Of a stretch of 64,000 nt of DNA, positions 29,767-58,814 are shown piece after piece. Under the pieces are notes generated by a model. The model did not search any database, was not told where the DNA came from, and saw only the letters and a program-made list of their open reading frames with translations. The position numbers were made by a program, and so were the translations under genes. This DNA comes from Butyrivibrio fibrisolvens 16/4 (GTDB lineage Bacteria > Bacillota > Clostridia > Lachnospirales > Lachnospiraceae): NCBI GenBank assembly GCA_000209815.1, contig FP929036.1, positions 205,907 to 269,906 on the forward strand, in the 5' to 3' direction. Numbering within the stretch: the first letter of the stretch is position 1; each line of letters starts with the position of its first letter.

Positions 29767-29861
29767 AACCACCTGTTACGCTCTCAAGCCTTGGCATTAC
29801 TCCGTTCAACGTAGAATGTTTCGCTTTAGTAACGCCAAGAGCTTGATAGCTACAGGTGGTT
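29767..29861 (-). ncRNA. Structured intergenic RNA element, copy 1
   Basis: A 95-nt element. The outer stem AACCACCTGT/ACAGGTGGTT and inner stem TTGGCGTTACT/AGTAATGCCAA (with one G-U pair on the minus strand) enclose the loop AAAGCGAAACATTCTACGTTGAAC. ATCAAGC and GCTTGA pair between the two stems. A T-rich stretch follows, so it could also terminate the upstream ABC operon. A related copy is at 58731-58814. Confidence 0.7.
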
Positions 29862-29872
29862 AACCAAATAAA

Positions 29873-30669
29873 CTATTTCGATAAAATTTCAGTATCATTC
29901 GTAAACTCTGTTCCTGACACTTCTTCGAATTTATGCAACAAATCTTCGATTGTTAAATTCTTTTTTCTTCGCCACTAATATTAAGAATTACACGACCTTC
30001 ATTCATCATAATAAGTCTATTACCATAATTGATGGCATCACGCATATTATGTGTAACCATCATAGCTGTAAGTCCGTGTTCCTTTATAAGCATATCAGTA
30101 ATTTCAAGTACCTTGGCTGCAGTCTTAGGATCAAGTGCCGCAGTATGCTCATCTAAAAGAAGAAGCTTAGGCTTTTGGATAGTTGCCATAAGAAGTGTAA
30201 GAGCCTGACGCTGACCTCCTGAAAGGAGTCCAACCTTTGCTGTAAGTCTGTCTTCCAATCCTAAATCCAATTCTTTAAGCATTTCGTGGTAGTGCGCACG
30301 TTCCGAACGTGTGACACCCCAGCCAAGACCTCTTGATTTTCCACGGCGGGCTGCAAGGGCCATATTCTCATCAATCTGCATATTTGCTGCTGTTCCTGTC
30401 ATTGGATCCTGGAATACACGGCCAAGATATTTTGCTCTCTTGTGCTCTGGGAGTCCCGTTACATCAATCCCATCGATAGTAATACTTCCACCATCAACAG
30501 GCCATACTCCTGCTACCGCATTAAGAAAAGTAGATTTGCCTGCACCATTTCCACCAATGACTGTGCAGAACTCACCTTCCTGGAGATTAAGAGTTGCTCC
30601 GGCAAGTGCTATTTTCTCATTTATTGTGCCTGGATTGAAGGTTTTTTGTAGATTCATCGCATTAAGCAT
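29873..30669 (-). CDS. ABC transporter ATP-binding protein, TrpZ/COG1101-like (frameshifted near its end)
   Basis: Cytoplasmic ATPase of the importer formed with the next two genes. Walker A is GGNGAGKSTFLNAV (near residue 37), the signature LLSGGQRQALTLLMA and Walker B LLLLDEHTAALDP. As given the frame stops after EEKR. One A added to the run at 29961-29966 restores the C-terminal NLTIEDLLHKFEEVSG tail and a stop at 29873, for 265 aa. The family takes up tryptophan or a similar compound in streptococci; substrate here is inferred. Confidence 0.85.
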
Positions 30670-31591
30670 TTTCCTTACCTCCTCTCCTAGCTGCCTTTCT
30701 AAATGAGCTATTTGAAACGCTCTTCAAATATGGTACTGCAAGGAAAATAGCAACGATGATAGCTGTGAAAAGCTTCATATCGTTTGCTGGCATCTTCAAC
30801 CACAGCACAATTGCAATAAATAAATAGTATAGTATTCCGCCAAATACAACAAAAGAAAGTGTAAGTACAAAATTTCTTCTCTTCTTAAATATTGCATTGC
30901 AGATTACTTCACCAATAATAATAGAAGCAAGACCAATGACAATGGCGCCACGTCCCATATTAACATCTGCATTTCCATTAAACTGAGCACTTAATGCACC
31001 CGCAAATGCAACTAATGCGTTTGAAATAACAAGACCAAGTGCCTTCATATAATTAACATTAATACCCTGGGCTTTTGACATAGCAGGATTTGTTCCTGTT
31101 GCTCTAATTGCAGACCCCATCTCTGTTCCAAAGAACCAATACATTATAGCAATAATAATTACGGCCATAACAAATACTGTAACCAAAGCATCTTCTTTGT
31201 ATCTCAAAGAAACTGCCAAATTGTATTTATCTACAGAGATAGGTGTATTTGGCTGGTTTCTCGTAATTCGAAGATTAATTGAGTACAAGGCCAGCTGGGT
31301 AAGTATTCCAGCTAATATATCTGGAATACCAAAAATAGTGTGCAAAACACCTGTAATCATTCCTGCTAATGCTCCAGCCACGAATGCCAGAGTAATAGCC
31401 AGAATCCATGATTTTCCTGAAATGATAACCATAGCAGCCACTGCTCCACCTGTAGCAAATGAACCATCAACAGACAAATCTGCGAAATTTAATAATTTAA
31501 ATGTAATGAAAATGCCAAGTGCCATTATTCCATATATAATTCCCTGTGCGGCTGTTCCTGGCAAACCTGAAATTAATGTTTCTATTCCCAT
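30662..31591 (-). CDS. ABC transporter permease, TrpY/COG4120-like
   Basis: A 309-aa integral membrane protein with about eight to nine hydrophobic helices and the branched-chain-permease-like fold: GSFATGGAVAA, a GILTQLALYSINLRI segment, and GLASIIIGEVI. It forms the channel of the importer. The start ATG 31591 is chosen for GGAG upstream; the TTG four codons before is weaker. It overlaps the ATPase start by 8 bases. Confidence 0.85.
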   Translation of the reverse strand: MGIETLISGLPGTAAQGIIYGIMALGIFITFKLLNFADLSVDGSFATGGAVAAMVIISGKSWILAITLAFVAGALAGMITGVLHTIFGIPDILAGILTQLALYSINLRITRNQPNTPISVDKYNLAVSLRYKEDALVTVFVMAVIIIAIMYWFFGTEMGSAIRATGTNPAMSKAQGINVNYMKALGLVISNALVAFAGALSAQFNGNADVNMGRGAIVIGLASIIIGEVICNAIFKKRRNFVLTLSFVVFGGILYYLFIAIVLWLKMPANDMKLFTAIIVAIFLAVPYLKSVSNSSFRKAARRGGKENA

Positions 31592-31606
31592 CTTAAACTC
31601 CAAAGA

Positions 31607-31628
31607 GCAAGGTCAAAAATGACCTTGC
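31607..31628 (-). other. Stem-loop between binding protein and permease genes
   Basis: GCAAGGTCA-TTTT-TGACCTTGC is a perfect 9-bp hairpin just before the permease ribosome site. With no real T-run it more likely protects or processes mRNA, keeping the binding protein in excess. Confidence 0.6.
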
Positions 31629-31666
31629 CCAAAATTTTTATAATTATTTCTAATTTTCAAAGTCTA

Positions 31667-32686
31667 TTATTCCATCTCGATTGCAACATAATCTTCTGGA
31701 AGAGTAATTCCTAACTCTTCTGCAATCTTAGGATTATATTCTTTAGTAAATTCTGTAGCGTACTGAATATCCATTGATGCTGGGTCTGCACCATTTGCAA
31801 GTATTTCATAAGCCATAAGACCAGCCGCATAACCAATGTCATAGTATGAAATTGAAAGTGTAGCGATTCCACATCCCTTACAGATGCCTTCTTCACCAGC
31901 GATAATAGGTACCTTTTCTGTAAGTGCAATGTTGTTAATTGTCTCTGCTGCGTTTGCAGCTACATTATCTGTTGGTACATATAAAACATCACTAGAAGCA
32001 CAAGCAGACTGTACAACAGTTCCAACATCAGCTGAATCAGCAAATGTATAATGTGTTACCTTATAGCCAAAGCTTTCAAGAGTAGTTGTGATTGTGTTTG
32101 CCTGATAAAGGGAATTTACCTCACCTGAACAATAGATAATACCGACTTCCTTGGCATCAGGGAAAATCTCGTGAAGCATTTCTGCCTGACCATCAAGTGG
32201 AGCTAAATCAGAAGTTCCTGTTACGTTAATTCCTGTAGCACCGCTCCAATCATCAATGTCCAAAGCTGAAGCATAATCTGTGATAGATGTTGCAACAACA
32301 GGAATAGAATTTGTAGCTGTCTGCGCTGCCTGTAAAGCAGGTGTTGCATTGGCCATTATCAAATCAACGTTATCTGATACAAATGTATTTGCGATTGTTG
32401 CACAAGTAGGAATATCACCAGATGCATTCTCAATCGTTACATTTACATTATCTCCTAACTTCTCTACAAGAGCAGCCTTAAAGCCTTCTGTTGCTGCATC
32501 AAGTGCTGGATGCTGTACCAGCTGAATAACTCCCACATTATATGTTTTTCCATCGTCAGTAGGTGCTTCTGCCTCTGTAACTACTTCTGTATTCTCAGCC
32601 TCTTTCTGAGCTGCAGCATCAGTACCACATCCTACTAACGAAAATGTCATAGTCATGACTGCTAACAGACTTACAATTTTCTTCAT
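31667..32686 (-). CDS. Substrate-binding lipoprotein, TrpX/COG2984-like
   Basis: A 339-aa extracellular lipoprotein. The lipobox LVGC (Cys at about 20) follows a signal peptide MKKIVSLLAVMTMTFS. The periplasmic-binding-protein fold shows IQLVQHPALDAATEGFK, ANATPALQAAQ and GEEGICKGCGIATLSISY, all typical of COG2984. It presents an amino-acid-like ligand, possibly tryptophan or tyrosine, to the downstream permease and ATPase. No T-box or tryptophan-specific leader was recognised upstream. Confidence 0.85.
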   Translation of the reverse strand: MKKIVSLLAVMTMTFSLVGCGTDAAAQKEAENTEVVTEAEAPTDDGKTYNVGVIQLVQHPALDAATEGFKAALVEKLGDNVNVTIENASGDIPTCATIANTFVSDNVDLIMANATPALQAAQTATNSIPVVATSITDYASALDIDDWSGATGINVTGTSDLAPLDGQAEMLHEIFPDAKEVGIIYCSGEVNSLYQANTITTTLESFGYKVTHYTFADSADVGTVVQSACASSDVLYVPTDNVAANAAETINNIALTEKVPIIAGEEGICKGCGIATLSISYYDIGYAAGLMAYEILANGADPASMDIQYATEFTKEYNPKIAEELGITLPEDYVAIEME

Positions 32687-32792
32687 AGTCCTCTCCTCCT
32701 TAGTTTATTGTGTCCACTTTAGCACTTTTAATGACTAAAGTCAATCAGTCAAATTAACGCTTTTGGAGGAAAATTATATCTTCATTTATTGC

Positions 32793-34156
32793 TTATAATT
32801 GATGACAATTTTCTGCACAAAACTTTTTCTCTAATTTGTTGCAGCAATAATAGAATCCTGGAATAAGGAAGATTACAGCAAATAACCATGCCACTGGACT
32901 AGCCCATATAGCACCTGCATATCCTATCATTGGCACAAAAGTGAATGCTACAAGAATTCTAGCAATCATCTCCATTACTCCAGAATAAATGGCAAATGTG
33001 GAAAATCCCATTCCCTGAATTGAAAATCTGAAAATATTGACTGCCGCTAAAAGTGTATATGTAGCCGCATTAGCCAGTAAGAACATCATAGCCTGATTTA
33101 TAACAACTTCAGTAGATGTGAACATTCTAAGCATATACTTCCCAGTAAAGAAAAGTATTATCAAAATAATGACCGCATATATAGTTCCGAGGAGCTGTGC
33201 TGTCCAGGTTCCTTTTTTAACTCTAGGAATATTTTTTGCACCTACATTTTGACCTGCGTAGGTTGCCATAGTTCCTCCTAAAGCATCAAATGGGCATACT
33301 ACAAACATAGAAACCTTTGCACCTGCTGTCATAGATGCAACAGCCACTGTACCAAGTCCATTTACGGCTGTCTGAAGAATTACTGAGCCGATAGCTGTAA
33401 CTGAATATTGAAGTCCAAATGGAATTCCCATAGAAATAAGCACCTGACTATGGTGTTTGCCAAGCTTTATATCACCTTTAGCCAGTTTTAAGATAGGAAA
33501 TCTTTTTTTCATATATATCACACAGCTAATTCCAGCAATAAACTGAGAAATAACCGTTGCGAGAGCCGGACCGTTTACGCTCATCCCAAGAACAATGATA
33601 AACACAATATCAAGCACCACGTTAATGCCTGCTGCCATAATCAAAAAATAAGTAGGTGTTTTACTATCCCCTAATGAACGCATAACACCTGCTGTAAGGT
33701 TATATAAAAAGTAACTGGAATTCCAAAGAAAATAATTGAAATGTAGGAATATGCTAAATCAATAATATCCGATGGCGTCTGCATAATAGCCAATATTTGA
33801 TAACAGAAAATACTAACCAATGTAGTAATTACTAGTGCAAAAATTGCTGATAAAACAATTGCATTGCCTACAAATTTGCGCATAGAATCATAGCTTTCTG
33901 CTCCGAAACGCTGAGCAACAGGAATCGCAAATCCTGAACACATTCCCATACAAAAGCCATTTATAAGAAAATTAATAGAACCTGTAGAACCTACTGCAGC
34001 AAGGGCACTATCACCAAGTGTCTGCCCTACGATAATTGTATCAACCAGATTATACATTTGTTGGAATAATAATCCTGCCAACATAGGAATTGAAAATCCT
34101 AAAATTAGAGTAAGTGGATTTCCTTGAGTCATCTTTTTTGTTGTATTTGCTGCCAT
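32793..34156 (-). CDS. MATE-family multidrug/cation efflux transporter (frameshifted in this sequence)
   Basis: A 12-helix exporter using a cation gradient. The N-terminal half has GNPLTLILGFSIPMLAGLLFQQMYNLVDTIIVGQ (the family start) and the second half begins MRSLGDSKTPTYFLI. One T missing from the run at 33706-33710 separates them; adding it gives FLYNLTAGVMRSLGDSKTP and 454 aa. The start ATG 34156 follows GAGGGTG. It is a single gene between the ribosomal operon terminator and the ABC operon. Confidence 0.92.
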
Positions 34157-34270
34157 ATACACCCTCGTATTCTATTATTTTATATAATAACTTATTTTTC
34201 TTCTTATACTCTCATATTCACATAATACACTAATTGTAAACAATTAGATAGATTAATCTACTTATAAAAA

Positions 34271-34296
34271 AGACCTAGGATATAAATCCTAGGTCT
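34271..34296 (-). terminator. Terminator of the ribosomal protein operon
   Basis: AGACCTAGGAT and ATCCTAGGTCT form a perfect 11-bp stem with a 4-nt loop, followed on the minus strand by TTTTTT. It is about 14 bases beyond the rplQ stop. Confidence 0.95.
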
Positions 34297-34309
34297 AGAA
34301 AGTCATATA

Positions 34310-34834
34310 TTAAACTAACTCAAGAACAACTTCCATAGCTGCATCGCCCTTACGTGGTCCGATCTTTACGATACGTGTGTAACCACCCTTACGATCAACG
34401 TACTTTGGAGCGATCTCATCGAATACGAAGTTAGCCATATCAACCTTGTGTGACTCTGACTTCTTTGTACCCTTAGCTGTTGGAGTGTAAAGAACCTGCA
34501 TCATCTGACGACGAGCGTGAAGTCTTGAAGGAGAATCCTTCTTAATCTTCTTGTCTACTGTATCGTATACAGTAACCTTCTTGCCATCAACAACTTCCTT
34601 TACTCTCTTACCATCTTTATCCTTACGAGCAACCTTTGCCTGAACTGTAACTTCTTCGAAGTTATCCTTTTCCTTTACACCAAGTGTAATGATGTGCTCA
34701 GCAATCTTCTTTACTTCCTTAGCCTTAGCCTCAGTTGTAACGATCTTGCCGTGATAAAGAAGCTCAGTTACCTGATTTCTTAAAAGTGCTTTTCTCTGTG
34801 AAGATGTTCTGCTTAACTTTCTGTACTTTGCCAT
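34310..34834 (-). CDS. rplQ: 50S ribosomal protein L17
   Basis: Large-subunit protein near the exit tunnel. The N-terminal MAKYRKLSRTSSQRKALLRNQVTELL is typical. The 174-aa protein is longer than the usual 115-130 because of an insertion of about 50 residues after the first third (AKVARKDKDGKRVKE), a variant common in Lachnospiraceae rather than an error. Start ATG 34834 follows AAGGAG. Last gene of the operon. Confidence 0.96.
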   Translation of the reverse strand: MAKYRKLSRTSSQRKALLRNQVTELLYHGKIVTTEAKAKEVKKIAEHIITLGVKEKDNFEEVTVQAKVARKDKDGKRVKEVVDGKKVTVYDTVDKKIKKDSPSRLHARRQMMQVLYTPTAKGTKKSESHKVDMANFVFDEIAPKYVDRKGGYTRIVKIGPRKGDAAMEVVLELV

Positions 34835-34861
34835 TTCTTTTCTCCTTATTGCTGGCGTCAC

Positions 34862-34970
34862 AGGTGCTCATCGGTCTTACCCCGCAACTTGATTAATGGA
34901 AAGGCATCCGCGAAATTGCTCATCGGTCTTATATTTCACGTATTATTTCCTGTTACTTTATATAGGCGAT
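34862..34970 (-). ncRNA. Candidate leader before rplQ with repeated 15-nt loop
   Basis: TAAGACCGATGAGCA occurs twice on the minus strand (34917-34931 and 34865-34879), identical over 15 bases. The first copy is enclosed by CGTGAAAT/ATTTCGCG, the second by GCGGGG/CCT..CGC. Two hairpins presenting the same loop sequence suggest a protein- or RNA-binding leader that controls rplQ. Confidence 0.55.
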
Positions 34971-35930
34971 TTAGTCCTCAATCAATCTGAGTGAAAGACC
35001 AAGCTCGCTAAGCTTCTGCTCTACTTCTTCCATAGACTTGCGACCAAGGTTACGAACCTTCATCATGTCATCTGGCGACTTGTCGCAAAGCTCTGCTACA
35101 GTATTAATACCTGCTCTCTTTAAGCAGTTGTATGAACGAACTGAAAGCTCAAGCTCATCAATGCTCATTTCGAGAGTCTTACCTGTAGTATCATCAGGCT
35201 TGTCAGCGATAACGCTAAGATCCTGAGCAGCCTCTGAAAGGTTTACAAATAAATTAAGGTGCTCACTGAGTACCTTAGCAGCCATAGAAACAGCTTCATC
35301 TGGACCCATAGTACCATTTGTATAAACATCAAGTGTAAGCTTATCGTAATCAGTAACCTGACCTACACGAGTATCTTCTACTGTCATGTTTACACGCTCT
35401 ACTGGTGTATAGATTGAGTCAACTGCAATCTTGCCGATTGGAGTATCTGGAGTCTTGTTCTTATCTGCTGAAATATAACCACGATTCTTTGTAATTGTAA
35501 GCTCCATGTAAAGCTTGCAATCATTGCCACCATTAAGATGTGCAATAACAAGATCAGGATTAATAATCTCGATATCAGAGTCAACCTGGATATCAGCAGC
35601 TGTAACAACGCCCTCTCCCTCGAACTCGATATATGCTGTCTTTGGCTCATCAGAACTACTATTATTTCTAATAGCAAGCTCCTTGATATTCATAACGATC
35701 TCTGTAACGTCTTCTTTAACACCTGGAATAGCACTAAACTCATGAAGAACGCCCTCAATCTTAATCTGGCTAACTGCAGCTCCTGGCAGAGATGAAAGCA
35801 TAATTCTACGAAGAGAATTGCCAAGTGTAATACCATAACCTCTCTCGAGTGGCTCTACAACAAATCTGCCGTATTTTTTGTCCTCAGAAATCTCGACGAT
35901 TTCAATATTTGGGTTTTCAAAATTTAACAC
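34971..35930 (-). CDS. rpoA: DNA-directed RNA polymerase subunit alpha
   Basis: Scaffold for polymerase assembly. The 319-aa protein has the N-terminal dimerisation domain ([20 protein letters not shown]) and the C-terminal domain (about 250-315; [18 protein letters not shown] and [11 protein letters not shown]) that contacts upstream DNA and activators. Confidence 0.97.
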
Positions 35931-35964
35931 TACATTGCCTCCTTAATATAATGTGCTAGACTCT

Positions 35965-35993
35965 AAAAAACAGAATATTTTAAAAATATTCTG
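35965..35993 (-). terminator. Intrinsic-terminator-like attenuator before rpoA
   Basis: CAGAATATTT and AAATATTCTG form a 10-bp stem followed on the minus strand by TTTTTT, within the operon between rpsD and rpoA. It probably lowers or regulates rpoA-rplQ transcription. Confidence 0.75.
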
Positions 35994-36030
35994 AATCTGC
36001 TTATGCCGTATAAAAAAATTTTAACAAATC

Positions 36031-36060
36031 GCACTTATACAAGCAAGCTTGTATAAGTGC
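36031..36060 (-). other. Perfect 14-bp hairpin between rpsD and rpoA
   Basis: GCACTTATACAAGC and its exact complement with an AA loop. The minus strand shows no immediate T-run. Together with the next hairpin it forms a tandem element that might be the target of S4 or of antitermination. Confidence 0.6.
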
Positions 36061-36085
36061 TTTTTGTAAGAATTTACTATATTTT

Positions 36086-36679
36086 TTACTTAGAATATAA
36101 CTCGACGATAAGCATCTCGTCTACAGGAACATCAATCTGCTCTCTGTTAGGAAGCTCTTTAACTGTACCCTTAAGGTTCTCAGCATCAACATCGATCCAC
36201 TCAGGAACCATTCTACCTGCTGTAACTTCTGTAATATCCTTAAATCTCTGAAGGCTCTTTGACTTCTCGCGAACTTCGATAACATCGCCAGCCTTTACAA
36301 GGTATGAAGGAATATTTACTGCCTTACCGTTTACAAGGAACATCTTGTGATCAACAACCTGACGAGCTTCCTTTCTTGTACGTGCGAATCCCATACGGAA
36401 TACTACGTTATCAAGACGGCTCTCAAGCATTGTCATAAGGTTTTCACCTGTCATACCCTTCTGACGATCTGCCTTCTCATAGTAATTGCGGAAAGGCTTC
36501 TCAAGTACGCCATAGATGAACTTAGCCTTCTGCTTCTCCTGAAGCTGAAGTGCGTACTCAGACTTCTTACCTCTTCCTCTATTCTTCTGTCTACGTGACT
36601 TTTTATCATATCCTAAAAATGTAGGATCTAAATCAAGAGATCTACATCTTTTAAGAACTGGTGTCTTATTAACTGCCAT
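36086..36679 (-). CDS. rpsD: 30S ribosomal protein S4
   Basis: Primary 16S rRNA-binding protein that starts small-subunit assembly. The 197-aa protein has [35 protein letters not shown], the S4 RNA-binding domain. No zinc-binding Cys cluster is present at the N-terminus. In E. coli S4 represses the alpha operon. Confidence 0.97.
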
Positions 36680-36695
36680 TAGATTTTCCTCCTAA

Positions 36696-37088
36696 TTAGA
36701 CTCTTCTACGCTTTGGTGGACGACATCCGTTATGTGGAACTGGAGTAACATCCTTGATTGTAAGAACCTGAACGCCGTTTGCATCGATTGCTCTGATTGC
36801 AGCTTCACGTCCTGAACCTGGTCCCTTTACGAATACATCTACACTCTTTAAACCGTGAACTAATGCAGCCTTAACTGCTGTCTCTGCTGCCATCTGTGCA
36901 GCATATGGAGTAGATTTTCTTGAACCTCTAAATCCTAGACCACCAGCACTTGCCCATGAAAGAGCATTACCCTGAGCATCTGTAATAGTAACGATAGTGT
37001 TATTGAAAGATGCCTGAACATGTACCTGTCCGTGTTCAACGTTTTTCTTTACACGCTTTTTTGTTGTCTTCTTTGCAACTTTAGCCAT
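36696..37088 (-). CDS. rpsK: 30S ribosomal protein S11
   Basis: Platform protein of the small subunit. The 130-aa sequence shows [35 protein letters not shown] and the C-terminal [18 protein letters not shown]. Sits between rpsM and rpsD. Confidence 0.97.
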
Positions 37089-37122
37089 AATTAAACTAAC
37101 CTACTTTCTTTCTATTAAATAA

Positions 37123-37491
37123 TTACTTCTTCTTATTAGCTACTGTACGCTTTGGACCCTTACGAGTACGAGCGTTTGTCTTAGTCTTCTGTCCACGAAC
37201 AGGAAGACCCTTTCTATGACGGATTCCTCTATAGCATCCGATTTCCTGAAGTCTCTTAATATCAAGGGCAACTTCTCTTCTAAGATTACCTTCTACAGTT
37301 AATGTCTCATCGATAACTGTGCTGATCTTCTTAACTTCTTCATCAGTTAAATCCTTAACACGTGTGTTAGGATCTACGCCAGCTGCCTCAAGAACCTTGT
37401 TTGAGCTTACTCTACCAATTCCGTAAATGTAAGTTAAACCAATTTCAATTCTCTTGTCTCTTGGTAAATCTACACCTGCAATACGAGCCAT
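37123..37491 (-). CDS. rpsM: 30S ribosomal protein S13
   Basis: Head protein contacting the P-site tRNA and forming bridges to the large subunit. The 122-aa protein starts [19 protein letters not shown] and ends in a basic tail, [18 protein letters not shown]. Start of the alpha part of the operon after a structured gap. Confidence 0.97.
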
Positions 37492-37500
37492 GTGTGTTTA

Positions 37501-37699
37501 CACCTCCATAAATATTTCTACAATTAATAAGCGATATAAATAATGCAGCTCCGGAAACCGGCCTGAAATGTGTGCATATCCATATCTTGTCCAAGTTTGG
37601 CCCCGGTATGATGGGCCTTTTTATTATGAACAGCCTAAATTAGATACTCTTTAGGCTGCAGCCGCACATAATAAATGCATTACATAAACTAATCAGAAA
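37501..37699 (-). other. Structured gap between rpmJ and rpsM
   Basis: Contains CAGCCTAAA/TTTAGGCTG (37631-37658, 9-bp perfect), GGCCC/GGGCC (37599-37617) and a CCGG-TTT-CCGG hairpin. No coding frame is present. It may be a leader for the rpsM-rpsK-rpsD-rpoA-rplQ part. Confidence 0.5.
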
Positions 37700-37813
37700 T
37701 TAACCCTGACGCTGCTTATGCTTTGGGTTTTCACAAATGATGCGAATGCTACCCTTTCTTTTGATGACCTTGCACTTCTCGCACATAGGCTTTACAGAAG
37801 ATCTTACTTTCAC
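37700..37813 (-). CDS. rpmJ: 50S ribosomal protein L36
   Basis: A 37-aa protein starting at GTG 37813 after GGAGG. It reads [20 protein letters not shown], then [15 protein letters not shown]. The zinc ligands Cys-X2-Cys, Cys and His are all present, so it is the zinc-containing form. Confidence 0.96.
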
Positions 37814-37945
37814 GATTTTCCTCCTTTCCATGCCCTTTTTTCAAAGGTTGTGGTCAACTTATATTTGAACATTCTAAAAACGTCCGCTTAATAGTATAGC
37901 GACCGTTTAATAGTATGTCAATAACTTTTTAATAACAAATTGTGA

Positions 37946-38164
37946 TTATTTATCTCTCCAAATAATTCTTCCTTTTGAAAGATCATAAGGACTCATTTCA
38001 ATTGTTACCTTATCTCCTGGTAAGATACGAATGTAATTCTGTCTTAACTTACCACTGATATGAGCAAGAATCTGATGACCATTCTCAAGCTCTACTTTAA
38101 ACATAGCGTTTGGAAGTTTTTCAACTACAACTCCCTCTACTTCAATAACATCTGCCTTAGACAT
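37946..38164 (-). CDS. infA: Translation initiation factor IF-1
   Basis: A 72-aa OB-fold protein that occupies the A site during initiation. It reads [21 protein letters not shown], then [25 protein letters not shown]. Its start overlaps the end of the KOW gene. Confidence 0.97.
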
Positions 38165-38421
38165 CCTGGTTCCTCCTATTATAAACCTTAAGAATTCTTT
38201 TAATTGCTATATCATCCATCGCTTTTATATTCTGGACTTCATCCAATATCTCAGATGGAATATTTTTTATGATCTGTAAATGAATCTTTTCTTTTCTTAG
38301 GCTTTGCAACGGTCTTTGTTGTACCATTTGCAATCAAATAGAAATCATTCATTTCTTCTATAATAATATATGTCTGATTTTTATCATGACCTGCCTTAGA
38401 TGTTGCAAGCATTAAATCCAT
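38157..38421 (-). CDS. Small KOW-type RNA-binding protein (frameshifted in this sequence)
   Basis: An 87-aa protein of a family often found between map and infA in Clostridia. The N-terminus [22 protein letters not shown] resembles a KOW motif, and KPKKRK is followed in the other frame by [19 protein letters not shown]. Removing one base in the A-runs at 38287-38295 joins them. The start ATG 38421 overlaps the map end and has GGAGGG upstream; the stop overlaps infA by 8 bases. Likely ribosome-associated; function unknown. Confidence 0.75.
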
Positions 38422-50280: not shown

Positions 50281-50434
50281 TTTCTACAGCGGAACGCTTC
50301 TTGCCCAACTTATTTATCGGGGTAGCGGAACCGTTCATCCTAGAACAGTGTCATATAAGTGGAACTAGATAAGAAATCTAAGTTGCTTCTATATAAAACC
50401 ATCTTGGATGTTAACTAAAATTGGTTGAACTCAA
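50281..50434 (-). other. Intercistronic leader between rpsJ and rplC
   Basis: About 150 bases without coding potential, unusually long for this operon, with partial complementarities (AGCGTTCCGCT and GGTTCCGCTACC). It may regulate rplC onwards. No known motif was recognised. Confidence 0.4.
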
Positions 50435-50746
50435 TTATTTGTTCTTGATGCTGATTTCAACACCTGCTGGCATCTCTAACTTAGAAAGCGCCTCAACAGT
50501 CTTCTGTGTTGGATCGATGACATCAATCAATCTCTTATGAGTTCTCTGCTCGAACTGCTCACGAGAGTCCTTGTACTTATGTACGGCTCTAAGAATTGTA
50601 ACAACTTCCTTCTTTGTTGGAAGAGGTACTGGACCACTAACCTGTGCTCCGTTCTTCTTAACAGTCTCGATGATTTTCTTGGCAGATGAATCTACTAACT
50701 CATGATCATAAGCCTTGAGTGTGATTCTCATAACTTGATTTGCCAT
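50435..50746 (-). CDS. rpsJ: 30S ribosomal protein S10 (NusE)
   Basis: A 103-aa ribosomal protein that also works with NusB in antitermination. It reads [35 protein letters not shown] and [17 protein letters not shown]. First gene of the S10 operon after a long leader. Confidence 0.97.
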
Positions 50747-51000
50747 AAAAAAGTCTCCTCCTTTTTCGTTTTTCTGACTTCTGAAAAATCGAACAAGTGG
50801 CGACTGTACACTTACCCGTGTGTATCATGGTTTAAAACTCAAAGTTCGAACCAAGTTCTCACACGTCGTCTCCGCGAATGCGGACGGTTTTCTGTTGTAC
50901 AGTGACTTGTCGTCAGTTTCCTAACTTGACATTCGCTCCACGGAAAACCAACCTGAGTAACTAGGTTGCAACCTCACGCTTCATAGCTATCATGTCACAG
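50747..51000 (-). ncRNA. Structured leader of the S10 operon
   Basis: About 250 nt from the mapped promoter to rpsJ. Pairings on the minus-strand RNA include ACTGTACA/TGTACAGT closing a branched domain, TCCGC-ATT-CGCGGA within it, GTGTG/CACAC, and TTTTTC/GAAAAA right before the ribosome site. The last stem could expose or hide the start region. Ribosomal leaders in E. coli bind L4; that function here is inferred. Confidence 0.65.
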
Positions 51001-51008
51001 CAAGTTAT

Positions 51009-51037
51009 AATATACACGTCAGTGGGGGTATATGCAA
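51009..51037 (-). promoter_or_regulatory. Promoter of the S10-spc-alpha operon
   Basis: TTGCAT (51032-51037), 17-base spacer, TATATT (51009-51014) on the minus strand. Transcription would begin near 51000. Confidence 0.8.
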
Positions 51038-51088
51038 GAAAAAGATGAAAATAATTGTATTTTATTAAGTACAATTTTAAGAACTACT

Positions 51089-51119
51089 AAATCTAGTGGT
51101 AGAACTAGATTTTTTAATC
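51089..51119 (+). other. Mutually exclusive hairpins upstream of the methyltransferase
   Basis: AATCTAGT-GGTAGA-ACTAGATT followed by T residues looks like a plus-strand terminator, but no gene precedes it. CTAGATT-TTTT-AATCTAG overlaps its 3' arm and would compete. Function unknown. Confidence 0.4.
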
Positions 51120-51128
51120 TAGAAATCA

Positions 51129-51156
51129 TTGAAGATTAATAATCTTTAAGTATAAT
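51129..51156 (+). promoter_or_regulatory. Promoter of the methyltransferase gene
   Basis: TTGAAG (51129-51134), 16-base spacer, TATAAT (51151-51156), about 100 bases before the start codon. Confidence 0.75.
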
Positions 51157-51180
51157 AATCGAGGTAACAATAAAAATCAA

Positions 51181-51231
51181 CACCTCATTTGACCTTCGGG
51201 CGCCTTCTCTTAATATAGAAGGCTGAGGAAT
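51181..51231 (+). ncRNA. Structured 5' leader of the methyltransferase gene
   Basis: CCTCA/TGAGG closes a domain containing GCCTTCT-8 nt-AGAAGGC and a CTTCGGG loop region. Its position between a clear promoter and the start codon suggests a regulatory leader. No known riboswitch was recognised. Confidence 0.5.
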
Positions 51232-51254
51232 ATATAGAAAGCAAGGTATATAAT

Positions 51255-52141
51255 ATGCAACCAGCTAATAATTGGAAAGATTACGAAATAATAGACTGTA
51301 GCTCTGGCGAGAAGCTAGAGCGTTGGGGAGACTATGTTCTTCTGCGTCCAGATCCACAGGTTATCTGGAATACAAAAAAATCCTCTCCTTATTATAAGAA
51401 ACTAAACGCTCATTATCATCGTTCAAATAAAGGAGGCGGTGAGTGGGAGTTCTTTGATCTTCCTGAGCAGTGGACTATCAGCTATCCTATCTGTGATAAA
51501 AATCTTACTTTTAATCTGAAGCCTTTCGCATTCAAGCACACAGGTCTGTTTCCTGAGCAGGCTGTAAACTGGGATTGGTTTTCTTCTATTATAAATAAGG
51601 AAATAAAAGAAAGAATCGTCCAGTTAAGGTTCTTAACCTTTTTGCATACACAGGTGGCGCTACACTTGCAGCTGCTGCAGCTGGCGCACAGGTTACTCAC
51701 GTCGATGCATCAAAGGGTATGGTTCAGTGGGCAAAAGAGAATGCTGCATCATCTGGTCTTGCGGATGCACCTATCAGGTGGCTTGTGGATGACTGCCGTA
51801 AGTTCGTAGAAAGAGAGATTCGTCGTGGTAATAAATATGACGGTATCATCATGGATCCTCCATCATACGGAAGAGGTTCTAAAAATGAAGTATGGAAGAT
51901 TGAGGATGATATTTTCCCATTCATCCAGCTTTGTGAGGAAATCTTAGCTGATGATGCTCTATTCTTCCTTGTTAATTCCTACACTACAGGTCTTCAGCCA
52001 GCAGTTTTAAACTACATGATTAGTACTGCCCTTTTAAAGAATCATCCTGGAGAGGTTACAGCTGACGAGATTGGACTTCCTGTTACAGAATCAGGTCTTG
52101 TACTCCCATGTGGTGCCAGTGGAAGATGGGTAAGAAAATAG
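51255..52141 (+). CDS. Class I SAM-dependent methyltransferase (frameshifted in this sequence)
   Basis: Probable rRNA methyltransferase. The N-terminal part (WKDYEIIDCSSGEKLERWGDY) resembles the PUA-like start of RlmI-family enzymes. The catalytic domain shows motif I VLNLFAYTGGATLAAAAAGA, THVDASKGMVQWAKEN, and motif IV MDPPSYGRG. One A added at 51614-51615 joins the halves (NRPVKVLNLF) into 295 aa. It is divergent from the ribosomal operon. Confidence 0.87.
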
Positions 52142-52227
52142 CACTATTATAAATAAGAAAGAACACTCATATTATATAGAAGTAAATCTATAATATATCT
52201 ATACCATTATATTAGGAAAATAATTTT

Positions 52228-53598
52228 ATGAATCAAACTACAAAAATAAATCCACTTGGTACAGAGCCAGTTGGAACACTACTTAGAAAATTTGCTATAC
52301 CTAGCATCATCGCCATGCTTGTAGGTTCACTCTACAATATGGTGGATCAGCTTTTCATTGGAAACTTCGTAGGCCCCCTTGGAAATGGTGCCACAAATAT
52401 CCAGTTTCCTCTCTCAATACTTAACGTATCAATCGCACTTCTTTGCGGTATTGGTGCAGCCTCTACTTTCAATCTTGCAATGGGACGAGGCGAAACAGAA
52501 AAAGCTGGCTATTATATAGGAAACGCCGTTTCATTTATGCTTATTGGCGGTCTTACACTTTCTATTATTACAGAGCTTTTCCTTGAACCAATTCTTTTAG
52601 GCTGTGGTGCTACCGAAAACATCCTGCCTTATGCAATGGAATACTCGCGTATATGCGCTTTAGGATATCCACTTTTTATTCTGTCAGCCGGTGGAGCTCA
52701 CATTGTAAGAGCCGATGGCAGTCCAAATATGACAATGGCTATCAATATGACTGGTGCCATCATCAACACTGTATTAGATTTTCTATTTGTAGCTGTATTT
52801 AAATGGGGAATGGCAGGTGCTGCTGTTGCTACAATCATCGGTCAGTATGTTGCCGGTATTATGGTACTTATTTATCTGACTAGATTCAAAACAGTTAAGC
52901 TTTATAAAAAGCACTTCATCCCTAACCTGGTAATGATTGGTGCCATTGCATCTTTAGGTGCAGCTCCATTCATTAATCAGATTGCTATGATGGTAGTACA
53001 GATAGTTATGAACCACATCATGGGATTCTATGGTGCCCAGTCAATTTATGGTTCTGATATTCCTATTACCTGTGCAGGTATCATCTCAAAGGTTAACGGA
53101 ATCTGCTTCTCATTTGTTATTGGTATATCTCAGGGATTACAGCCTATCGTAAGCTTTAACTATGGAGCTAAAAACTACGATAGAGTTAAAAAAGCTTATC
53201 ATCTTGCTATAAGAATTGCTGCAATTATTACAATTACAAGCTGGGCCTGCTTCCAGCTCTTCCCAAGACAGATTGTTTCAATCTTTGGTTCTGGTAGTGA
53301 ATTATATTTTGATTTCTGTACTAAATACTTCAGAATATTCCTCTTCGGAATTTTCACAGCCTTTTTACAGCCATTATCATCAAACTTCTTCACTTCCATT
53401 GGAAAGCCTTACAAGGGTATTTTTATGTCCCTTACAAGACAGGTGCTTTTCCTTACACCACTTATCATCTGTCTTCCATTATTCTTCGGATTCAACGGAG
53501 TACTTTATGCAGGACCAATTGCAGATGCATTATCATTTACAATCTGCTTCATTCTAGTTCGTAGAGAATTTAACCGTCCTGAATTTAAAAACGCATAA
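52228..53598 (+). CDS. MATE-family efflux transporter
   Basis: A 456-aa exporter with about 12 helices. It reads LGTEPVGTLLRKFAIPSIIAML, YNMVDQLFIGNFVG, and the second-half repeat KAYHLAIRIAAIITITSW. Intact, unlike the first MATE gene, and 86 bases after the methyltransferase, probably on its own transcript. Substrate unknown. Confidence 0.93.
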   Translation: MNQTTKINPLGTEPVGTLLRKFAIPSIIAMLVGSLYNMVDQLFIGNFVGPLGNGATNIQFPLSILNVSIALLCGIGAASTFNLAMGRGETEKAGYYIGNAVSFMLIGGLTLSIITELFLEPILLGCGATENILPYAMEYSRICALGYPLFILSAGGAHIVRADGSPNMTMAINMTGAIINTVLDFLFVAVFKWGMAGAAVATIIGQYVAGIMVLIYLTRFKTVKLYKKHFIPNLVMIGAIASLGAAPFINQIAMMVVQIVMNHIMGFYGAQSIYGSDIPITCAGIISKVNGICFSFVIGISQGLQPIVSFNYGAKNYDRVKKAYHLAIRIAAIITITSWACFQLFPRQIVSIFGSGSELYFDFCTKYFRIFLFGIFTAFLQPLSSNFFTSIGKPYKGIFMSLTRQVLFLTPLIICLPLFFGFNGVLYAGPIADALSFTICFILVRREFNRPEFKNA

Positions 53599-53607
53599 AA
53601 CCAAAAA

Positions 53608-53637
53608 GAGCCCTCTGTGTGCAAACGCAGAGGGCTC
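53608..53637. terminator. Terminator between the MATE and GGDEF genes
   Basis: GAGCCCTCTGTG and CGCAGAGGGCTC form a 12-bp stem with one wobble. The minus strand continues with TTTTT, serving the GGDEF gene; it may also stop the plus-strand MATE transcript. Confidence 0.85.
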
Positions 53638-53653
53638 ATACTTATCTATTCAA

Positions 53654-54939
53654 TTATTTACATACAATCTGATTACGTCCGCCTTCCTTGGCCTGATATA
53701 GATTATCATCAGCTCGTTTCAAAGCATCATCTATATCCTCCCCAGGCTGAAGAGCTGTCAATCCAAAGCTCATAGTAATTTGTCTATCCGAATCTGGAAC
53801 CCAGATAGTGCGAACCTCATTCATTATAAGCTCCAGTTCTCTTCTAGCTATATCAAGCTCACGACCATCAAAAATAAGAAGGAACTCCTCGCCACCCCAT
53901 CTGGCAGCAATGCCTTTTCCAACCATTCCAGCTTTTAGCTTCTCAGCAACACGTCTAAGAACCTCATCACCCATTTCATGGCCAAAGGTATCATTTACCT
54001 TTTTAAAGAAGTCTATATCCGAAATGCAAACACAATACTTTATTCCAAGCTCCACTGCACGTATTCTAATTTCAGCCAGCTTTTTATCAGCATAGCGTCT
54101 GTTATTTAAACCTGTAAGAGCATCATACTCAACCAATGTCTGAATAGCCTTTGCCATTCTCCTACCATCATTGGCAAGATGTTTTAGCTCATCATCTTCC
54201 ACCATAACCTCTCTTGGGATGTCGTTATCAAAGTTGCCGTCCGCAAGAGTATTAATATACTTGCTCATCTTAGAAATTCTAACAGCAAGCTTTCTATTAA
54301 AGTAAACAACTACAAAGCCCATCAACAATGCCGTAAGAATACAGGTTACACATATAGGGAAAATGTATTGTAGCAATTCCTGCTTTACAGATTCCTGAGA
54401 ACGACTTACAGCAATCATTCCCTCGATATTTCCATCTTCGGAGCGAATAGGAGAATAAAAGGCATAGCTTTTTTATCATAAACCAATACATTATTATAAA
54501 ATCTGCTTTCTCCGCCATTTAAGACGTCCTTTTTCACAATAACCGATGCACTGGTTCCTGTAGCTCTGTTGCCTTCGGAATCCTTTAATGTGGTAATAAG
54601 GCGTATATCATTATAGAAAAGAGATATATCTATCTCTAACAGATTGGCCAAATCATCTATCATGGTATATTCACCGTTGATTCTCTGGTTACCCTTATAC
54701 ATTTCAATTTCGCCATCACCGTCAGCGTCTTCTGCCCAATATTCACCTGCATAGACCTCATCTAAAACGTATTGAGCCATCTTTGCATCTCTAATAAGCT
54801 CATCTTCCGTTTCATTAGACATAAGCTGATACAAACCGCTGATGCCTACAGAGATAATAATTATCGCCATCAATGTCAGCGGAATCAATGTGACCCTTAG
54901 CATCTGAGTATTTAAACTGTTTCTTAACTTCTTTTTCAT
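53654..54939 (-). CDS. Membrane-bound diguanylate cyclase (frameshifted in this sequence)
   Basis: Makes cyclic di-GMP. A first helix (about residues 20-42), an extracellular sensor domain, a second helix (about 191-213), a HAMP-like linker and a GGDEF domain (about 265-425) with the active GGEEF in RWGGEEFLLIF. No RxxD inhibitory site is visible upstream of it. One A missing from the run at 54469-54474 splits the gene; restored, it reads YDKKSYAFYSPIRSEDG-like sequence and gives 428 aa. Start ATG 54939 follows GAGGTG. Confidence 0.9.
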
Positions 54940-55018
54940 TAGACACCTCATTTTTGGCTTCTGATAACTCAGTATGATTTTCCCACAATAATATGTATTT
55001 ACGGTGAACATGTGAAAA

Positions 55019-55046
55019 AGCAGACCAATAAAGATATCGGCCTGCT
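55019..55046 (-). terminator. Terminator of the sugar ABC operon
   Basis: AGCAGGCCGATA and TATTGGTCTGCT pair over 12 bases with two wobbles, followed on the minus strand by TTTTT, about 50 bases past the last permease stop. Confidence 0.85.
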
Positions 55047-55093
55047 CTCCCACAGAATTGAATGATTATAATATGAACATGAAAAAGAAAAGA

Positions 55094-56124
55094 TTATTTA
55101 TTTCTCTGTGCCTTAACAAGTGCAAATATTGACTGCAAAATGATGAATACACAAAGAAGTGCTGCAGTTGCAATGTTTGCCCAGCTTGAAAGAAGCTTTC
55201 CATTTGTATTAACAAGTACTGTAATAGTACCATTGATAAGAACACCAAAGAGTGATCCGATTACATTACCAACACCACCTGTAAGAAGTGTTCCTCCAAT
55301 TACGGCTGATGCTATAGCATCCATTTCAAGTCCCTTAGCCTGGTTAACTGAACCTGACATTGTATTCAAACAGTAGAGAATTCCACCGATTGAGCAAAGG
55401 AATGAAGAAAGGATATGTGAAAGCATTCTTGTCTTTTTTACATTAAGTCCCATCATTGTAGCTGATGTCTGGTTGCCACCTACAGCATAAAGGTTGCGAC
55501 CAAACTTTGTGTACTTGAGCATAAGGAAAATTACTACTAAAACAATGATTGCTATAAGTACTGTTGGTCTGATGTAAGGAGCAACAATCTTACCGTGCTT
55601 GTTAGCTTTTCCTAAAAACTCTGGAAGATTAATCTTTGAGTTTGCCCAAGCGTAGAACAATGGGTTGTCTGCCTCTGTAATAGAAATCTGGCCAGAGCAG
55701 ATAACTGCTGTCATACCTCTTGCAAAGAACATTCCTGCCATAGTTACGATGAATGGCTGAATCTCAAGATATCCTACAAGGAAGCCCTGAACTGCACCAA
55801 ATACTAAACCAATAACAAGAACAAGTATTACCATTGGAACAGCGCCCATATGCCACTCTGTCATGCCAAATACAAGAAGCATACAGTCCATAGCAATTAC
55901 TGAACCAACTGAAATATCAATTCCACCTGTAAGCATTACACAGGTCATTCCGCAGGTAACACAGATAAGACCAGCATTGTTAATAAGAACATTCAGGAAA
56001 GTCTGAAGATTTCCAAAGCCCTTATCAGCATAAATTACACAACCAATTGCATACATAAAAATGAATAATGCAATTGTAATAAATATAAGAACTGTATTTG
56101 AATCTAATTTCTTTTTGTCTTCAT
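55094..56124 (-). CDS. Sugar ABC transporter permease, YjfF-like (frameshifted in this sequence)
   Basis: Second permease of a galactofuranose-type importer, 343 aa with about nine helices. It reads GMTCVMLTGGIDISVGSV (the RbsC-family signature), GYLEIQPFIVTMAGMFFARG and GLEMDAIASAVIGGTLLTGG. The N-terminal residues MKTKKKLDSNTVLIF are recovered by adding one A to the run at 56112-56116. Its ATG overlaps the stop of the previous permease by one base. Confidence 0.9.
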
Positions 56125-57187
56125 TATGCTGCCTCCTTTACCATTGTCTGCTGAGCTCTCTGTTCTTTCTGAGCTTTTCTGGCAGCCATGTAAGCCTTAA
56201 AGGCTGGAGCCTGCACAACTACGATAATAATAACGATGATTGCCTTAAATACTGGTGCCTTATCAGTTGAAACACCCATAGCAAGAAGTGTTGTTGTAAT
56301 AGCCTGAATTGTATAAGCACCGATTATAGAACCTGCAAGATTAAATTTACCACCACCAAGTGAGTTACCACCAAGAGCAACAGCAAGGATGGCATCAAGC
56401 TCGTAGTTAAGACCAATGTTATTTGAATCTGCTGAGTAGATTCTTGATGATGCAACGATACCTGCGATACCAGCGCAAAGGCCACATACTACGTAGCAGA
56501 TAAAGCAGATAACATCTGAGTTAATTCCTGAGATTCTTGCAGCTCTACCGTTGATACCAACTGACTGAATGTAAAGTCCAAGAGCTGTCTTCTTAAGAAG
56601 AATAGCTACGATTGCAATAACTGCTGCAGCCACAAATACTGGAGTAGGAATAGGACATCCTGGGAGGAAGTTTCCTAAATATTTGTATGGCTCATATCGT
56701 ATATACGTAATCTGGTTGTTGCAAAGAAGAAGTCCGATAGCACGTGCAGCTGTAAATAAAATCAATGTTGCTACCATTGGCTGAATCTTTAGCTTAGCAA
56801 CAAGTGCACCATTCATAGCACCACTTACACCACCCATAAGTACACCAAAAAGCATACCAACAAGCATTGGAACTGCAAGTGTTGAAACTGAATTGTTTCC
56901 ATATCCAGCAAGTAACATACAACAGCTACAAGCTGAAAGGGACATTACTGAACCAACCGAAATATCTGTACCAGCTGATACAGCAACTACTAATGTCTGT
57001 CCTACTGCTAAAATCGCAATTTCTGATCCACGATTTAAAATATCAATTAATCTACCAAATAAAACACCGTTGTTGATACTGATTGCAAAGAAATCAGGTG
57101 ACTTAATCAAGTTTATCAACAGTACCAATATCATACAGAAAATTGGCAAGAACAGTGGCTTTTTGTAAGTTTCTTAAAATTTTCCAT
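56124..57187 (-). CDS. Sugar ABC transporter permease, YtfT-like (frameshifted in this sequence)
   Basis: First permease of the importer, 354 aa. It reads GQTLVVAVSAGTDISVGSVMSL, KLKIQPMVATLILFTAARA and YELDAILAVALGGNSLGGG, close to RbsC/YtfT. One A added to the run at 57160-57164 restores the N-terminus MENFKKLTKKPLFLPIF from ATG 57187, which overlaps the ATPase stop. Confidence 0.9.
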
Positions 57188-58701
57188 TATTCTCCACCTC
57201 CTGCGATAGCTGCCATTACAGATTCCTGAGTCATCTCTCCAGATATTTCTCCAACCTGTGCGCCATCACGCATTACATACATTCTAGAACAGGTACGAAG
57301 CATCTCCTCAATTTCAGAAGATATAAATACGATACTCATACCCTCCTCCTCAGCAAACTTTAAAGCAAGCTTCTGGAACTCGGTCTTTGTACCGATATCG
57401 ATACCTCTGGTTGGCTCATCTAAGATTAAGAAATCTGGATGTGTGCATAACCATCTTGCAAGAATAACTTTCTGCTGATTACCACCAGAAAGCTGATTTA
57501 TTGGAGTCTCTCGAGATGCTGTCTTTATCTGAAGCATATCGATGAACTTATCAGCCATTTCAATTTGCTTTGACATAGGAATCTTTTTGAATATACCATT
57601 TCTAGCCTGAAGGGCAAGGATGATATTCTCCCTAACTGAAAGATCACCAATACAGCCATCCGCTTTTCTATCATCTGGAAGGTATCCCATTCCAGCCTTT
57701 ATTGCATCAAGTGGCTCCTTGATGTTCAGCTCTTTACCATTTACCTTTAAAGTTCCTGTCTGAGCCTTATCTGCACCATAAATGCAGCGAACCATCTCTG
57801 AACGACCAGAGCCAAGAAGGCCAGTAACACCAACAACTTCGCCCCTCTTAATGCTAAAATCAAATGGCTTAATAGTACCTTTATGACTAAGATTTGTTGC
57901 TTCAACAACCACATCGTCAGAAACATTACCTGCTCCCTCCTTTTTGATAGATGCCAAATCATCAAAATCCTTACCAAGCATTGCCGCTACAAGCTTGACA
58001 CGAGGCATTTCATCAACAGAATACTCACCAGCAAACTCACCATTTCTAAGAACAGTAATTGTGTCACATACTTCATATACCTGCTCAAGGAAATGAGTTA
58101 CAAATATAATTCCAACTCCCTTTGATTTAAGATCTCTCATAACCCTAAAGAGCTTTTCAACTTCGCTATCATCAAGTGATGATGTAGGCTCATCAAGGAT
58201 AAGAACCTTACAATCCATATCTACAGCTCTTGCAATCGCTATCATCTGTTGAATTGCAAGAGAATAATTTTCAAGCGCAATTGTTACATCAATATGTAAA
58301 TCAAGACCATCCATAATATCCTTTGCACGTTTGTTCATTGTGCGCCAGTCGATGGTACCAATTTTTGTTTTTGGTTCACGACCAATAAATAAATTTTCTG
58401 CTACTGTTAAATTAGGGCAAAGGTTTACCTCCTGGTAAACTGTAGCAATACCCTTTTCCTGTGCTTCCAGGGTAGAATGGTTGACAACAGGACCTTCAAT
58501 GCCTGCGACATGAATCTCCCCGGCATCTAATGAATACACACCTGTTAAAACTTTAATAAGCGTAGATTTTCCAGCACCATTCTCTCCCATTAGAGCATGT
58601 ATTTCTCCCTTTCTTAGAGTGAATTGCGCATGGTCTAATGCTTTTACACCCGGAAAGGATTTGGATATGTCTCGCATAGTAATCAAAATATTTTCATCCA
58701 T
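57187..58701 (-). CDS. Sugar ABC transporter ATP-binding protein, YtfR/MglA-like
   Basis: A 504-aa double ATPase. The first domain has Walker A GENGAGKSTLIKVL, and the second has the degenerate motif GLLGSGRSEMVRC plus signature QLSGGNQQKVILARWL and Walker B LILDEPTRGIDIG. Such two-domain proteins energise ribose- and galactofuranose-type importers. Confidence 0.94.
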   Translation of the reverse strand: MDENILITMRDISKSFPGVKALDHAQFTLRKGEIHALMGENGAGKSTLIKVLTGVYSLDAGEIHVAGIEGPVVNHSTLEAQEKGIATVYQEVNLCPNLTVAENLFIGREPKTKIGTIDWRTMNKRAKDIMDGLDLHIDVTIALENYSLAIQQMIAIARAVDMDCKVLILDEPTSSLDDSEVEKLFRVMRDLKSKGVGIIFVTHFLEQVYEVCDTITVLRNGEFAGEYSVDEMPRVKLVAAMLGKDFDDLASIKKEGAGNVSDDVVVEATNLSHKGTIKPFDFSIKRGEVVGVTGLLGSGRSEMVRCIYGADKAQTGTLKVNGKELNIKEPLDAIKAGMGYLPDDRKADGCIGDLSVRENIILALQARNGIFKKIPMSKQIEMADKFIDMLQIKTASRETPINQLSGGNQQKVILARWLCTHPDFLILDEPTRGIDIGTKTEFQKLALKFAEEEGMSIVFISSEIEEMLRTCSRMYVMRDGAQVGEISGEMTQESVMAAIAGGGE

Positions 58702-58730
58702 ATTCTCTCCTCCACTTTTCTGTTTATTAC

Positions 58731-58814
58731 GCTGGTTACGGCTACAAGCCTTGTATTTCCAAGTTCAACCAGAATGTTTCACTTTGGAAACACAAGAGCT
58801 TGATACCTACCAGC
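58731..58814 (-). ncRNA. Structured intergenic RNA element, copy 2
   Basis: An 84-nt relative of the element at 29767-29861. The outer stem is GCTGGT/ACCAGC, inner stem TTGTGTTTCCAA/TTGGAAATACAA, and loop AGTGAAACATTCTGGTTGAAC. ATCAAGCTC and CAAGGCTTG are shared with copy 1. It lies between the binding-protein and ATPase genes and lacks a T-run, so it is not a plain terminator here. Confidence 0.7.

Follow-up and report, generated by a model that had tools for sequence, protein, structure and literature searches.

Are two hairpins that share a loop and differ in their stems the only copies of an undescribed small RNA, or do they belong to something larger? The question arises from a stretch of 64,000 nucleotides of Butyrivibrio fibrisolvens 16/4 (contig FP929036.1, positions 205,907 to 269,906; hereafter the window), for which the first-pass annotation had proposed a two-copy structured intergenic RNA. 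That observation is correct but understated, as the two hairpins are members of a large family. We consider it probable that the family consists of genus-restricted, small interspersed hairpins that resemble non-autonomous mobile DNA and are transcribed as the 3′ ends or intercistronic parts of mRNAs, with some copies (class I, such as copy 1 of the window) acting as terminators and others (class II, such as copy 2) being read through.

Both hairpins are present where they had been placed. On the minus strand, the RNA of copy 1 folds at -47.8 kcal/mol (z -8.5) and that of copy 2 at -41.6 kcal/mol (z -8.2); the plus-strand RNAs give z scores of -7.9 and -5.8, and none of 200 shuffled sequences was equally stable for either copy on either strand. 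As had been described, they share the loop and the flanks ATCAAGCTC and CAAGGCTTG, and their outer and inner stems are unlike in sequence yet still paired. A covariance model built from the two copies alone (R1) finds further copies: there are 44 matches in the genome of the strain itself (the home genome) at E-values up to 1, 42 of them below 1e-5, and copies outside the training pair reach E-values as low as about 1e-23. In Rfam 15, at the gathering threshold, no family matches either copy in the window, and the only families found in 20 further loci with copies are T-box and tRNA, elsewhere in those loci; permissive scans of both copies returned matches far below the gathering scores, mostly to miRNA precursor families. 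Additionally, a literature search that covered few subscription journals turned up no publication on an element of this kind in Butyrivibrio, Pseudobutyrivibrio or Lachnospiraceae. The idea of an undescribed intergenic RNA is therefore upheld as far as a strand-specific conserved fold, compensatory changes and the lack of an Rfam family or a paper are concerned, but what had been seen as a stand-alone RNA in two copies is instead a high-copy repeat, dispersed at the 3′ ends of genes and between genes.

Within the genus, R1 matches were obtained in 27 of 29 genomes, with 5 to 133 per genome (5 in G017); the two negative genomes are G014 (83% complete) and G016 (86% complete), in which FtsH identity is also lowest (82-83%). 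A second model, R2, built from 46 copies, gives 106 matches in Pseudobutyrivibrio sp. YE44 (150 candidates scored), and 142 matches were counted in genome G028. Among 250 genomes of the bacterial family, R2 matched two, both from the home genus, and none of the 248 from other genera, although divergent copies there could escape, because only 17 first-look candidates were scored per genome. With 150 candidates scored in each, no match was found in 16 other named genomes, including one Butyrivibrio. Judging from these searches, the element is restricted to one genus, Pseudobutyrivibrio in the sense of the database. A pattern scan of genome contigs for the loop motif returned 114 stretches, by their titles mostly from unrelated phyla, which were taken for chance matches and not examined individually. 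Most elements measure 83-97 bp, and the mean pairwise identity is 66% among 46 aligned copies and 64% (maximum 86%) among 18 copies of the home genome, which argues against a recent burst. Seven adjacent inverted pairs were also seen, all minus then plus and 2 to 83 bases apart (one each at loci L129, L135 and L139; near 331.4, 390.3 and 654.7 kb in G028; near 18.0 kb in contig G277:C15 of YE44), and YE44 additionally has one close same-direction pair.

The fold that is common to the family comprises, from 5′ to 3′, an outer helix of 10 bp (P1), an internal loop in which an A lies opposite GUA, a helix of 3 bp (P2), the helix CAAGC/GCUUG (P3), a bulged U and a helix of 11-12 bp (P4), beyond which the tip consists of an apical helix, containing tandem GA/GA in 40 of 46 copies, and an AUUCUA-like loop. 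In 72 distinct copies aligned on R1, a fit that biases the alignment towards the model, standard pairs occupy 94.6% of cells (72.9% when shuffled, 27-42% when slid), 26 of the 29 pairs show double-sided changes and the covariation score is 0.594 against 0.181; L134 was excluded from this set, as it duplicates the sequence of L133 in another genome. When 46 copies are aligned with MAFFT, which was given no structure, RNAalifold returns essentially the same hairpin, and double changes occur at 30 of its 36 pairs.

Some positions of the fold hardly vary. A11, A37, U46, G85 and U86 are the same in 46 of 46 copies, the bulge is U in 45, and the internal loop keeps its G and U in all 46 and the last A of GUA in 43. 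Since the information of unpaired and paired columns, taken as groups, is not significantly different (p 0.13), the claim of conservation is limited to these named positions. On the minus-type strand, G-U cells exceed A-C cells by 46 to 10 over all pairs, and by 26 to 10 when one G-U-rich pair is left out, so that one strand is favored, in agreement with the minus-strand RNA previously suggested. The G-U pair of the inner stem on which that suggestion had been based is real, with G-U in 20, A-U in 15 and G-C in 5 of the 46 copies. A second apical type, bearing AGCCAATCTC, occurs in 8 of the 61 forward-strand rows of alignment A2. The alignment behind R2 (A4) holds 46 copies hand-picked from alignment A3, without apical type B, irregular apical parts, the near-duplicate L137 and the later-added L176-L189; consequently, R2, the G-U and A-C counts, the invariant positions and the pair tallies describe type A copies.

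Two classes can be distinguished by the foot of the outer stem. They were assigned in 103 copies, namely 43 of the 44 from the home genome (a match of 60 nt, L188, being excluded), the best 30 of 106 in YE44 and the best 30 of 142 in G028. In class I (50 copies), the fourth pair from the foot is formed together with at least three of the four foot pairs, and in class II (47 copies), that pair is absent, typically as AGC...GCG; six copies are intermediate. In the ten bases around the 3′ end of the element (two inside it, eight beyond), class I has a mean of 5.3 T and class II of 3.1. A Shine-Dalgarno-like word and a start codon follow within about 40 bases in 24 of the 47 class II copies and in 5 of the 50 of class I, and the flanking genes converge around 23 and 4 copies of classes I and II, respectively. 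The stable stem, U-tract and position at a gene 3′ end that define an intrinsic terminator are found together in class I, but not in class II, with its lower T content.

The gene before the element is co-directional in 83 of the 103 copies. Of the copies flanked by co-directional genes, 53 have the sense and 17 the antisense orientation (p 2e-5), and for class II the numbers are 34 and 7. Some of the top-scoring copies are antisense to the preceding gene (L121, L145 and L425-L428), L121 and L145 having the highest scores in G028 and being antisense by gene calls. All these calls come from a naive picker of the longest open reading frame, and under another gene-calling rule 6 of the 44 home-genome copies overlap a called frame. 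Ten genes downstream of class II copies, annotated by Pfam, share no theme: they code for DHFR, an Era-like GTPase, a MraY-like transferase (both of these labels are interpretations of Pfam matches), a GtrA-like protein, a sugar dehydratase/epimerase, Ham1, glycerol-3-phosphate dehydrogenase, a family 3 glycosidase, a ferredoxin-like protein and DUF1292. A riboswitch or leader RNA was rejected on these grounds, as copies lie at gene 3′ ends and in gaps within operons, and the ten annotated downstream genes form no coherent set.

The presence of the element varies at orthologous sites. In the gap between binding protein and ATPase genes that holds copy 2, it is present in 6 of the 17 genomes in which the gap is readable (the home genome, G007, G009, G011, G022 and G028); the four nearest relatives by binding protein (G012, G004, G019 and G027; 96% identical) lack it, and G006 has an apparent deletion remnant. 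A separate GGGGAAGG-type hairpin is found there in all 17 genomes, whether the element is present or absent. In the same gap of G021 (L271), an unlike hairpin, AACTGATGGCGATCTAC...GTAGACCGCCAGTT, stands where other genomes have the element and perhaps represents another repeat family. At the copy 1 site, among 29 ftsH loci, the element occurs in the home genome, G027, G028, G015 and G022, with a shortened one in G026. Here G012 and G019 have a plain terminator formed by the stem CCTCCAGT, and in G028 this stem bears the core, reversed relative to ftsH; in this comparison of terminators, L240 and L256 had no usable upstream region (L256 being near a contig end) and L262 was left out.

A further 20 sites of the home genome were followed into five relatives through 150-base anchors, on which the orthology rests. 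Matches were obtained for 19 anchors (L157 failed), giving 82 comparable places, and the element is present at 25 of them; 28 copies above 50 bits were found, but L330, L331 and L347 lie off-site and were not counted. Element-free class I sites often carry unrelated plain terminators (L149, L153, L154, L156 and L167), and element-free class II sites have, in several relatives, the stop codon and Shine-Dalgarno sequence only (L158, L166 and L170). In other cases the core is inverted within common arms: at L153 the flanks and outer stem are common to the home genome and G027, and at L150 the stem GCACCTGT is common to the home genome and G019, G004 having a short near-perfect palindrome there. 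Additionally, one element may be nested within the loop of another, as in G011 and G022 (copy 2 site) and G028 (L151 site). At about position 1501 of locus L400, an outer stem, ACCACCCAGT/ACTGGGTGGT, surrounds a shortened core and is followed by a T-run, as if a collapsed element had decayed to the shape of a plain terminator.

The family shows the many dispersed hairpins with variable presence among relatives that are expected of miniature inverted-repeat transposable elements or small interspersed repeats; the arms of the present elements are complementary, without a fixed terminal sequence. The transposase family Y1_Tnp was found in 10 of the 29 genomes and not in genomes with up to 85 copies. 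Membership of the REPIN/RAYT system was rejected, as Y1 transposases are not linked to the elements. The GTAG-like 5′ side of the core is, we presume, reminiscent of REPs, which we take as a lead only. An autonomous copy, with a gene between the element halves, was also discarded: a search with the 3′ half gave 33 matches, 30 of them inside known copies, and the three orphans are one collapsed element and two apparent chance matches (a control with the reversed pattern gave two).

In the explanation that we favor, the elements would behave as non-autonomous mobile DNA and would presumably be moved by an enzyme that recognizes the folded single strand. They would be transcribed within mRNAs, as 3′ ends and intercistronic parts. 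Class I copies, such as copy 1, in which the outer stem is complete and the tail T-rich, would terminate the adjacent gene in either orientation of the core; this stem and tail are built like an intrinsic terminator and appear to interchange with plain terminators at orthologous sites. As class I is terminator-like in both core orientations, a sense core seems unnecessary for termination, and the good preservation of the core in antisense copies points to the folded core having a part in the spread of the element. Class II copies, with a foot mismatch that is typically A-G and without a clear U-tract, lie mostly inside operons, often between a stop codon and a Shine-Dalgarno sequence, and would have to let transcription pass through. 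Their sense bias and placement point to an effect in the mRNA, which could alter how stable it is or how well the next gene is translated. In E. coli, a REP between malE and malF gives differential expression within the operon, and by analogy copy 2, between its binding protein and ATPase genes, possibly has a stabilizing or processing role. More speculative, and in our opinion improbable, is a stronger version, in which a self-spreading hairpin with a variable stem and an unrecognized structured core would move from loop to loop via a folded single strand (RNA or single-stranded DNA) and replace the terminators and operon spacers of the genus.

Several observations weigh against the favored explanation. 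The empty site of L180 in G004 resembles a deletion between two AGC words, so that some empty sites are losses, and the plain terminators that share a stem with elements could be collapsed elements rather than pre-insertion sites. Under the pattern used, 23 of the 47 class II copies have no Shine-Dalgarno sequence plus start codon; 10 of the 50 class I and 9 of the 47 class II copies follow a gene of the opposite strand; and the sense excess of class I alone is not significant (17 versus 9, p 0.17). Copy 1 was missed by a simple terminator scan, whose rule permits only loops of 3-8 nt. As for movement, no mobilizing enzyme was found in the 29 genomes, Y1 being the only transposase family searched; none of the elements lies within the 18 loci around Y1 matches; and no clean target-site duplication was seen by eye at the orthologous sites compared.

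A rival explanation is a process that acts on DNA, in which the hairpin would be the single-stranded substrate of a transposase or recombinase, selection for transposition or correction by template switching would maintain the complementarity of its arms, and any effects in RNA would be incidental. Such a process is quite possible, if not the account that we would choose: nesting in hairpin loops, inversion between shared arms, the short palindrome of G004 at the L150 site, adjacent inverted pairs and preservation of the core in antisense copies all agree with it, but the lack of a linked enzyme in the search for the Y1 family, the sense bias and placement of class II, and asymmetric loops that are conserved instead of being corrected speak against it. 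Another rival is an mRNA element acting in cis, whose core would be recognized by an RNA-binding protein specific to the genus or cleaved by a ribonuclease and would set differential expression within operons, its spread being secondary. The 34 to 7 ratio of sense to antisense class II copies between co-directional genes, intercistronic sites such as that between binding protein and ATPase, the invariant unpaired positions with the tandem GA, and the 46 to 10 excess of G-U over A-C on one strand are in its favor. However, high-scoring antisense copies (L121, L145, L425-L428), core orientations that flip inside a conserved stem, operon sites that are element-free in relatives and the ten annotated downstream genes without a common theme make it rather unlikely. 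Finally, ordinary terminators that are alike by convergence would account for the terminator features of class I and its exchange with terminators, but a sequence-specific core common to 72 distinct copies, with the non-training E-values given above, refutes convergence as a full explanation; together with nested copies and the failure to find the element in 248 other genera, it leaves this account hardly credible.

Similar repeats are known from other bacteria. SPRITE of Streptococcus pneumoniae resembles a Rho-independent terminator and is enriched near gene 3′ ends, and BOX, RUP and SPRITE seem to insert into one another (PMC3049150). The present family is likewise one of small interspersed hairpins, but, compared by their description in the passages available, it is set apart by having one core with two foot types (terminator-like and operon-internal), copies that are 64-66% identical with compensated stems, invariant loop bases and a tandem-GA apical helix. 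ERIC, NEMIS, YPAL and others are palindromic repeats that fold in RNA, as the present ones do, and ERIC of Yersinia is said to control adjacent genes via RNA hairpins (PMC2267715); by the description available, they belong to other phyla, whereas here the outer arms vary with compensation and there is no fixed terminal repeat. REP/REPIN sequences with their RAYT are also dispersed hairpins, thought to be mobilized as folded single-stranded DNA (PMC3116915). In contrast to REPINs as presented there, our elements have no linked Y1/RAYT, form a longer and more complex hairpin and are mostly singlets (three adjacent inverted pairs among 142 matches in G028). Terminators made from DNA uptake sequences share with the present family that a dispersed repeat doubles as a terminator hairpin (PMC2267715), although, in the passage concerned, that hairpin arises from paired uptake words, and in the present family it is the core on the loop side that is repeated, with a variable outer stem. 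From what these excerpts describe, the family is the same in kind as SPRITE/BOX, ERIC and REPINs, and a split by the foot into terminator-like and operon-internal forms, with deep compensatory change, does not appear in the passages on them.

The element is structured and escapes annotation of these genomes with Rfam. Its structure, orientation, presence, nesting and inversion can be read across related genomes, with up to 142 copies in each, and this makes testable how small hairpin repeats spread without an obvious transposase, and what share of a genome's terminators and intercistronic hairpins derives from such repeats.

The gene context of both copies in the window is, according to Pfam, as it had been read: genes for an ABC binding protein, a permease and an ATPase precede copy 1, ftsH follows it, and copy 2 lies between genes for a periplasmic-type binding protein and an ABC ATPase. 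The model match of copy 2 is four bases longer at each end than the earlier coordinates. The ATPase frame before copy 1 stops at 29953, and the DNA through a TAG at 29873-29875 (minus strand) resembles the gene end in G027. This frame may be shifted near its 3′ end, and, if that TAG were the true stop, copy 1 would begin 11 bases past it.

Positions of the two copies, their parts and the adjoining genes in the window
Feature	Position	Strand	Remarks
Copy 1 of the element, class I	29767-29861	minus	Full 10-bp outer stem; R1 match of 114.7 bits, though a training copy of R1
Copy 1, P1, 5′ arm AACCACCTGT	29852-29861	minus	Pairs with 29767-29776
Copy 1, P1, 3′ arm ACAGGTGGTT	29767-29776	minus	
Copy 1, GUA of the A/GUA internal loop	29777-29779	minus	Opposing A at 29851, invariant
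Copy 1, P2, 5′ arm GCU	29848-29850	minus	Pairs with 29780-29782; covarying
Copy 1, P3, 5′ arm CAAGC	29841-29845	minus	Pairs with 29785-29789; followed by bulged U at 29840
Copy 1, P4, 5′ arm	29828-29839	minus	12 bp with 29790-29801; covarying
Copy 1, apical part	29802-29827	minus	Short helix, tandem GA/GA, AUUCUA-type loop
T-rich stretch TTATTATATTAATTG	29752-29766	minus	Directly downstream of copy 1; terminator-like class I tail
Copy 2 of the element, class II	58727-58818	minus	Outer foot with A-G mismatch, GTAAGC...GCGTAA; 91.6 bits, though a training copy of R1
ABC transporter ATPase upstream of copy 1	29953-30669	minus	Open frame, Pfam; seems shortened relative to G027
ftsH, downstream of copy 1	27634-29586	minus	Pfam
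ABC periplasmic-type binding protein, upstream of copy 2	58877-59971	minus	Pfam
ABC transporter ATPase, 25 nt downstream of copy 2	57187-58701	minus	Pfam
Separate GGGGAGG...CCTCCCC hairpin	58828-58849	minus	Between the binding-protein stop codon and copy 2

Elsewhere in the window, on the minus strand, Rfam identifies an S10-Clostridia ribosomal protein leader (50907-50992, 92.2 bits) and a tRNA gene (12718-12789). Additionally, two overlapping frames, 27388-27630 and 25781-27466, span 25781-27630 on the same strand and are apparently one gene in two frames, which we take to be UvrC-like.

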